From a virus, in IMG/VR virus record IMGVR_UViG_3300047564_003912, positions 1-31,887 of that record: 31,887 nucleotides of DNA; one strand, 5' to 3'. Positions 20,447 through 22,776 of this stretch are shown in pieces. The notes beneath the pieces were generated by a model. The model was not told the origin of the DNA, made no database searches, and saw only the letters and a program-made list of their open reading frames with translations. Positions within the stretch are counted from its first letter, which is position 1; each line of letters opens with the position of its first letter. Made by a program: the position numbers and the translations under genes.

Positions 20447-20587
20447 TTACTCAAAGTCAAAAGCTTCGTAGTCTTGTTTGCCTACGCCGCACTCTGGACA
20501 CTCAAAATCGTCTGGTAGTGTATCCCAAGCGCCTTCTGTTTCTTCGTCGTGGATATGTCCACAAACAATACAAACGTACTCTTTCAT
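20447..20587 (-). CDS. Rubredoxin
   Basis: A 46-residue protein: CIVCGHIHD near the start and CPECGVGKQDYEAF near the end, the two C-x-x-C-G knuckles of a one-iron rubredoxin, with the aromatic residues around them. Rubredoxins pass single electrons in the cytoplasm, often to rubrerythrin-type peroxidases. The ATG overlaps the stop of the rubrerythrin-like gene (ATGA, 4 nt), so the pair is translationally coupled. At 46 residues it is shorter than most (about 52), the loop between the knuckles being trimmed. Confidence 0.92.
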   Translation of the reverse strand: MKEYVCIVCGHIHDEETEGAWDTLPDDFECPECGVGKQDYEAFDFE

Positions 20588-21039
20588 TTTAAGGTCTCCA
20601 GTTTCTGTTCGTAGGCTTTAGCGTGCTTTTGCTCAACTTTCTTTAGTGCAGCAAATCTACGCTCTGCTAATTTTAGCAGCTCTTCAAACTCTTTAGCGTG
20701 TTGCTTGGACTCCATGATTTGAAGCTTGGCTTCTAGCATTGCTGTTTCATTTCCTTCTTGCAAAGCCTCTTCTTCAAACTTAGGATACATTTCTGTGTAT
20801 TCATAAGTCTCGCCAGCAATGGCTCGCTCTAAGCATTCTTTGGTGGAAATTTCGCCAAGCAACAGTTCTAGGTGTCCCCAAGCGTGTTTTACTTCTTGTT
20901 CTGCAGTATGCTCAAAGTGGTCTGCAATGTCGTGGTAGCCTTCGCTGCGAGCAATCATGGCAAAGTATTTGTATTTTACGTGCGCCATGCTTTCACCAGC
21001 AAGTGCGCCTTCTAAGTTTTTTAATGTTTTGGATAGCAT
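20584..21039 (-). CDS. Rubrerythrin-like diiron protein (lacks the rubredoxin domain)
   Basis: A 151-residue four-helix-bundle protein: GESMAHVKYKYFA (first Glu ligand), FEHTAEQEVKHAW (E-x-x-H), AIAGETYEYTEMYP (two Glu ligands), then MESKQHAKEF. Rubrerythrins reduce hydrogen peroxide; in most the electron-donating rubredoxin domain is fused at the C-terminus, but here it is a separate adjacent gene. In the last motif Glu and His are spaced one residue wider than the usual E-x-x-H, so one iron ligand may differ. AGGAA precedes the ATG. Likely role: oxidative-stress defence of the infected cell. Confidence 0.88.
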   Translation of the reverse strand: MLSKTLKNLEGALAGESMAHVKYKYFAMIARSEGYHDIADHFEHTAEQEVKHAWGHLELLLGEISTKECLERAIAGETYEYTEMYPKFEEEALQEGNETAMLEAKLQIMESKQHAKEFEELLKLAERRFAALKKVEQKHAKAYEQKLETLK

Positions 21040-21227: not shown

Positions 21228-21264
21228 AATTTTTGCGCTTTGGCGCAGTTTAAGTTTTACTACT

Positions 21265-21640
21265 ATAATTAAGCACGCAAGGTTTTGTATGCTTAATTAT
21301 GCACACTTATTCTGTTACGAGGAAAGTGTGCGAAAACCCTAGGCTGTTATTTAGGCAGCCAATGCAAATGTATTATCGTTTGCGTTTACTTTTTGTGCTG
21401 TTTCGGCCGGGTAGTCCCAACCCTACGGCTGTCGCATTGCCGAGTTGTCTGCTTTAATACTTGTCACCTTGTCGAAACCTGGGCTGGCCCATCAGAAACA
21501 TACTTCGTCCTGCAGTTCAGTCTTTTTACAAGTAGAGGCACGGGCTGCAAATATGTTTCTGGTGGACCAGGTGGGAATCGAACCCACGTCCAAGCTGCCT
21601 TTCTCGAGGCTTCATACAACCATATTATCTAGTAGTTCTT
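21265..21640 (-). ncRNA. ssrA: Circularly permuted (two-piece) tmRNA
   Basis: Rescues stalled ribosomes by trans-translation. In minus-strand order: an acceptor piece (about 21640-21560) with T-arm GTGGG-TTCGATT-CCCAC (21571-21587) and 3' CTGGTCC-A-CCA (21570-21560); an intervening segment (21491-21559) whose ends pair (CAGAAACATA at 21493-21502 with 21552-21561); then a coding piece starting GGGCCAG (21490-21484), which pairs with CTGGTCC to rebuild the acceptor stem, followed by the hallmark GGTTTCGAC. The tag frame 21383-21351 reads ANDNTFALAA-stop, with the stop in a GGCTG/CAGCC hairpin. Two hairpins (8 and 11 bp) follow to 21265. Outer ends are approximate. Confidence 0.93.
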
Positions 21641-21761
21641 TGCAAGCTTTAATCCACATAACCACAGTCATGTTGTTTGGGTCGTGATTATGTTCGTACA
21701 TATCCAAAACCCATCTACACATTTCAGGAGTTTTAGCGTGGTGTGCACACAGCAAGTTCAT
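21612..21761 (-). CDS. Possible 49-residue protein between pstS and the tmRNA
   Basis: A short frame starting 1 nt after the pstS stop and ending inside the acceptor piece of the tmRNA. It reads MNLLCAHHAKTPEMCRWVLD at the start, rich in His, Cys and Met, which could be metal-related. No separate Shine-Dalgarno is obvious; translation could be coupled to pstS. Confidence 0.5.
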   Translation of the reverse strand: MNLLCAHHAKTPEMCRWVLDMYEHNHDPNNMTVVMWIKACKELLDNMVV

Positions 21762-21762
21762 T

Positions 21763-22776
21763 TTAGTGTTTAATTTCTTGCCAAACTCGTTGACGAATTT
21801 GATTGGTTAGCGCGTCTGGTAGTGGTACATAGTCTAGTTCAATGGCTAGTGTTTTACCATTTTTAAACGCCCAGTCAAAAAACTTGATTACTTCACGACT
21901 TTGCGCTTTGTTTTCAGGTTCTTTGTACATTACAATAAAACTAGCTGTGGTAACAGGCCAAGTGTCCTTGCCAGGCTGATTAACAATGCTCAAACCCATG
22001 CCAGGTACGCTAAACCAGTCTGCGCCCGCAGCAGCAGCTGCAAAAGTTTTGTCATCTGGGTCAACAAACACGCCTGCTTTGTTTTGCAGTTTCATGTAGT
22101 TCATGTTGTTTTTCTTTACATAGGCATACTCAACGTAGCCAATGCTGCCTTTTACACGATTTACATTAGCTGCTACGCCTTCGTTACCTTTGCCACCCAC
22201 ACTAGTGGAGGCAGGCCACTTTACAGCAGCGCCGCGGCCTACTCGTTTTTCCCATTCAGGACTGATTGCGGTTAAGTAATCAGTCCAGTTAAATGTAGTG
22301 CCAGAACCATCAGCGCGGTGTACTACAGTAATGTCTAAGTTAGGAAGTGGCTTACCTGGATTAAGTGTCTGCAGTTTAGGGTCATTCCACTTTTTAATGT
22401 CGCCTAAAAATACTTCTGCTAGTACTTGACCAGTAATTCGTAATTCACCTGGCTTAAAATTATCCAAATTAATTACAGGCACTGTTCCGCCAATAACTGC
22501 TGGAAATTGCACTTGATTTAGTTTAGTTAGATCTTCGCCTTTAACTGGTGCATCTGTAGCACCAAACGCAACAGTTTTGTTGTTAATTTGACGAATGCCG
22601 CCACTACTACCAATACTTTGGTAGTTCAATCCTACACCAGTTTCTTTTTTATAGGCTTCTGCCCACTTAGCATAAATTGGGTACGGAAACGTAGCGCCCG
22701 CACCAGTAATATCAGCAGCTTGTGTAGTAACTGCAAGGGCTGCAAAAATAGTAACAAATAAATTTTTAATTTTCAT
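21763..22776 (-). CDS. pstS: PstS-type periplasmic phosphate-binding protein
   Basis: A full-length 337-residue phosphate-binding protein of the high-affinity Pst transporter. Signal peptide at 1-20 (MKIKNLFVTIFAALAVTTQA, cleavage before ADITGAG). Phosphate-binding motifs are intact: GAGATFPYPIY (25-36), SIGSSGGIRQI (near 56-66), FGATDAPV (near 72-79) and HRADGSGTTFNW (near 153-164). No truncation is seen. As an auxiliary gene it would raise phosphate capture by the infected cell through the host PstCAB. It overlaps a small secreted-protein gene by 11 nt. The sequence looks bacterial (betaproteobacterial) in style, suggesting acquisition from a host. Confidence 0.97.
   Translation of the reverse strand: MKIKNLFVTIFAALAVTTQAADITGAGATFPYPIYAKWAEAYKKETGVGLNYQSIGSSGGIRQINNKTVAFGATDAPVKGEDLTKLNQVQFPAVIGGTVPVINLDNFKPGELRITGQVLAEVFLGDIKKWNDPKLQTLNPGKPLPNLDITVVHRADGSGTTFNWTDYLTAISPEWEKRVGRGAAVKWPASTSVGGKGNEGVAANVNRVKGSIGYVEYAYVKKNNMNYMKLQNKAGVFVDPDDKTFAAAAAGADWFSVPGMGLSIVNQPGKDTWPVTTASFIVMYKEPENKAQSREVIKFFDWAFKNGKTLAIELDYVPLPDALTNQIRQRVWQEIKH

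Follow-up and report, generated by a model that had tools for sequence, protein, structure and literature searches.

A complete circularly permuted transfer-messenger RNA (tmRNA, ssrA) gene was identified on the minus strand of the IMG/VR record IMGVR_UViG_3300047564_003912, a stretch of 31,887 bases (hereafter, the window) that originates from an uncultured freshwater phage and represents a fragment of a T5-like phage genome. The program ARAGORN called a permuted tmRNA with the tag ANDNTFALAA at positions 21260–21652(−), placing the end of the 3′ transfer RNA (tRNA) domain at 21560 and the start of the 5′ tRNA domain at 21490. The Rfam model RF04321 (tmRNA_permuted) matched over its full length at 21621–21351(−) with 116.5 bits (E-value 2.3e-22; cut-off, 47 bits), and RF01850 (beta_tmRNA) matched at 21699–21294(−) with 95.3 bits, exceeding its gathering score of 84 bits and assigning the gene to the beta-type subgroup. 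For the alpha- and cyano-tmRNA models, no match was reported at this stretch in the Rfam search, which kept only the best match of each clan. The whole gene featured a fold z of −4.3. These results, lying far beyond chance, confirm the initial annotation, which had proposed a two-piece phage tmRNA with borders at 21490 and 21560 and had named the Rfam and ARAGORN searches as checks; both borders recurred in the ARAGORN call, and the strand, which had not been given, was determined to be the minus strand. We consider it very probable that this functional-looking, beta-type permuted ssrA gene is resident in a T5-like lineage probably infecting freshwater Burkholderiales, where it would support ribosome rescue.

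Both RF04321 and ARAGORN place the 3′ tRNA-like half ahead of the 5′ half within one gene. Read 5′ to 3′ on the minus strand, to which all element coordinates below refer, the first of these elements is GGTTGT (21616–21621), one strand of the long inter-piece helix, followed by the 3′ tRNA-like domain (21560–21598; borders deduced from ARAGORN and the sequence), which comprises the T-arm GTGGG-TTCGATT-CCCAC, the acceptor 3′ strand CTGGTCC, A73, and an encoded CCA ending at 21560. An intervening sequence of 69 nucleotides (nt), the spacer (21491–21559), separates the CCA from G1 and contains a helix of GAAACATA paired with TATGTTTC, which in the precursor stacks onto the acceptor stem. The 5′ tRNA-like domain (21464–21490; ARAGORN and RF04321) opens with the acceptor 5′ strand GGGCCAG from 21490 and continues with GGTTTCGAC. 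It is followed by ACAACT (21443–21448), the partner of GGTTGT according to the RF04321 structure line and the fold, and by a CGGC/GCCG hairpin (21426–21442; RF04321 alignment) located upstream of the tag. The tag reading frame (21351–21383; ARAGORN resume consensus and tag) runs from the resume codon GCA to TAA (GCA AAC GAT AAT ACA TTT GCA TTG GCT GCC TAA), and its stop codon lies within the hairpin GGCTG-CCTAAATAA-CAGCC (21342–21360; fold and sequence). Two more hairpins follow, namely GCACACTT/AAGTGTGC with the conserved loop TCCTCGTAACAGAAT (21301–21331; stem changes in relatives and the beta_tmRNA model) and the terminal hairpin TAATTAAGCA/TGCTTAATTA (21266–21299; fold), which is close to the 3′ end of the coding piece. 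The tag frame, stop-codon hairpin, and downstream helices listed in the initial annotation were accordingly all recovered.

The acceptor strands had been described as pairing once their order is swapped, and the split halves CTGGTCC and GGGCCAG of the window copy indeed form seven out of seven pairs, including G3:U70, the identity pair for alanine. All acceptor pairs were standard in each of the 21 distinct T5-like copies and in all 86 other viral copies, with two-sided changes occurring at several acceptor-stem positions across the viral sequences. The helix at the spacer ends extends this stem, A73 lying opposite U-1, C75 opposite G-3, and A76 opposite U-4. When seven spacer-helix pairs were scored per sequence, 140 out of 147 cells were standard in the T5-like phages (shuffle mean 95, maximum 114) and 578 out of 602 in the 86 other viral sequences (shuffle mean 397), values reached by none of 1000 shuffles in either set; since the compared sequences are related, these counts are not probabilities. 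Sliding the partner strand by one or two bases, a control that retains the relatedness, reduced the pairing from 0.95 to 0.31–0.62. Because the spacer helix covaries and the spacer region of the window folds with a z of −4.2, the precursor fold is conserved beyond the mature RNA alone. Compensatory substitutions in both helices show that the entire precursor, with its spacer helix, is under selection. In the downstream hairpin around the loop CCTCGTAACAGAAT, both stem sides likewise vary between relatives.

The assignment of the carrier to the T5-like phages is based on its T5-type DNA polymerase and helicase, both closest to those of T5-like Vibrio phages, and on a split NAD-dependent ligase; SbcC/SbcD, a primase, and a DnaB-like helicase are encoded as well, and ARAGORN detected 12 tRNA genes spread over 12 kb of the window. 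The set of relatives comprised 80 viral loci that encode a related ligase; in 32 of these, ARAGORN called a permuted tmRNA, most of them sharing with the window the order tRNA-Thr, tmRNA, tRNA-Gly. A search with the Rfam model placed 18 of 29 selected records above the cut-off, some of them having no ARAGORN call in the fetched stretch. Across 25 phages, the tmRNA distances correlated with the ligase distances (Mantel r = 0.68, a value reached by none of 2000 permutations), and the gene follows phage ancestry. In three T5-like relatives (L159, L161, and L170), the T-loop TTCGANT was found to be replaced by GGCAGTG, and GGTTTCGA of the 5′ domain by GGATCGA. The tmRNA gene of the window is flanked by genes for the phosphate-binding protein PstS (21763–22776) and rubrerythrin (20584–21039), which represent bacterial-type metabolic genes inside a T5-like phage; a bacterial-type class II aldolase gene is also present.

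Since the phage PstS is closest to Comamonadaceae and Limnohabitans proteins (approximately 77% identity to the closest bacterial proteins listed), the sequence data suggest freshwater Burkholderiales, likely Comamonadaceae, as hosts, an assignment that draws on a single metabolic gene and could point to a former host. Among 13 genomes of likely host bacteria, none featured a beta-type permuted tmRNA above the cut-off and 11 harbored a standard tmRNA above it; the remaining two are metagenome assemblies, in which the missing gene may correspond to an assembly gap. In a wider Burkholderiales sample, 13 out of 300 genomes contained a strong permuted match (>120 bits), and three of these also carried a full standard gene. 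The three genomes with both forms (G196, G217, and G291, with the permuted loci L313, L312, and L315, respectively) may represent mixed bins; in L315, CCA and GGGG are just 5 nt apart, resembling a tandem-copy junction. The window tmRNA reached 83% identity with phage copies and no more than 73% with any bacterial copy compared, and its tag ANDNTFALAA differs from the ANDERFALAA of the likely hosts. The simplest reading is that the gene has probably been long resident in the phage lineage and does not represent a fresh capture.

Following general tmRNA biology, a single minus-strand transcript would fold such that the spacer hairpin prolongs the acceptor stem. Host RNase P cutting at G1 (21490), together with 3′ processing after the CCA (21560), would then excise the spacer of 69 nt, so that an acceptor piece would remain joined to a coding piece by base pairs. 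The paired pieces would be charged by the host alanyl-tRNA synthetase via G3:U70 and brought to stalled ribosomes by SmpB, presumably that of the host, because SmpB was not found in 16 related phage records of 69–128 kb each, in a search that detected the bacterial controls. Ribosomes would resume on GCA, append ANDNTFALAA, and stop, the tag marking the product for proteolysis. During infection, the phage tmRNA, like the adjacent phage tRNAs, may sustain rescue while host transcripts and the host genome are degraded, and a role in maintaining translation at this stage is consistent with the position of the gene among clustered phage tRNA genes. Several observations weigh against this proposal. 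Many relatives are devoid of a detectable copy, and the gene is therefore dispensable; promoters and terminators near the gene showed no excess over shuffled sequences; and the SmpB search covered related records, the window itself being only a 32-kb fragment of its phage.

Phages are known to pick up host genes, and PstS and rubrerythrin in the window may exemplify this, so that the tmRNA could in principle be a recently captured host copy, i.e., passenger DNA without a role for the phage. This is highly unlikely, given that the likely hosts encode the standard form (11 of 13) and none of them the permuted beta form above the cut-off, that the nearest sequences are phage copies (83% versus 73% for the best bacterial copy), that the position is kept and the gene co-diverges with the ligase across the lineage, and that compensatory substitutions in both helices, acceptor and spacer, show selection; recent host capture was rejected on the host form and the nearest sequences. 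Contamination by a bacterial fragment miscalled as viral, which the bacterial-type genes for PstS, class II aldolase, and rubrerythrin might evoke, has a negligible probability in view of the T5-type replication module, the split ligase, the 12 tRNA genes over 12 kb, and the many syntenic viral contigs, and was rejected on the T5-type gene content.

The initial annotation had also raised the possibility that the phage tmRNA could take over ribosome rescue or retag proteins during infection. A related scenario, in which it acts as a competitor or poison of host trans-translation, or serves to retag proteins instead of aiding rescue, would accord with a phage tag unlike that of the likely hosts. 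We regard this scenario as unlikely, because the gene retains an intact tag frame, resume sequence, and stop hairpin, and because ALAA terminates most of the T5-like tags. The window tag shares this ending with ordinary degradation tags, and ALAA is the ending expected for degradation by proteases. Hence, a plain role in rescue and degradation is the simpler explanation.

Permuted phage tmRNAs had initially been regarded as little described, which is an overstatement: 53 phage tmRNAs called by ARAGORN were suggested to be two-piece in 2022, of which 50 belong to marine or aquatic phages (PMC9004378), and our pattern scan of IMG/VR yielded at least 120 matching stretches. The Methylophilales phage Melnitz is likewise a lytic phage with a permuted ssrA gene, but it is a myophage, its gene is of the alpha type, and it possesses a glutamine riboswitch (PMC9004378), whereas the window derives from a T5-like phage with a beta-type gene, and no riboswitch was detected in it at the Rfam gathering threshold. 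Rfam provides a model for the permuted form (PMC11915505), and the window gene matches RF04321 and RF01850 over the full model, with homology in the tRNA-like domain, the inter-piece helix, the tag, the stop hairpin, and the 3′ loop. Its CCA is fully encoded, whereas the corresponding sequence in the Rfam beta consensus and in several bacterial copies is CCACC plus a different base, and its 69-nt spacer compares with 25–43 nt in bacterial permuted copies, the odd L315 excepted. Stenotrophomonas phages of the genus Menderavirus (e.g., Marzo, with an annotated tmRNA) also harbor a tmRNA within a phage tRNA cluster, and in the IMG/VR record L003, which equals IME-SM1 in length, it was called permuted. 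These phages belong to another group with T4-like genes, and their tmRNA resembles that of the window at the DNA level in the T-arm region only (82% identity over 65 bases). Among 50,697 phage records searched by DNA similarity, no isolated T5-like phage with a permuted tmRNA was found, the matches being confined to Stenotrophomonas, Xanthomonas, and Synechococcus phages; nor was a published report of one found in the open-licence literature, the papers naming both T5-like phages and tmRNA not having been read. In Synechococcus phage BUCT-ZZ01 (ON615601.1; L359, 1398–1592), a T-arm-like stretch lies under the annotated hypothetical protein UTS52133.1.

Unusual tags were observed in further viral permuted tmRNAs. 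The IMG/VR contigs L018, L061, L071, and L084 encode tags of 29–31 amino acids ending in KAESFAV or KAEAFAV, and not in LAA, with some synonymous differences between the loci; these may not be ordinary degradation tags. Another family (L009, L029, L032, L120, L064, L035, and L111) features tags of 28–31 amino acids of the form ANADTFDFSAMSFTGN...ALAA, the amino-acid sequence being largely conserved.

While phage-borne two-piece tmRNAs are already known as a kind, the T5-like carrier and the mismatch in gene form with the likely Comamonadaceae hosts are new, extending this type of gene to the T5-like lineage. As a tentative and rather doubtful extension, aquatic phages might keep an old, self-perpetuating pool of permuted tmRNAs independent of the host gene form, with T5-like Burkholderiales phages carrying a two-piece tmRNA into one-piece hosts and possibly acting as the vector through which the few Burkholderiales possessing the permuted form acquired it. 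The host mismatch raises the question of whether the phage copy replaces the host tmRNA during infection, and whether phages spread the permuted form.
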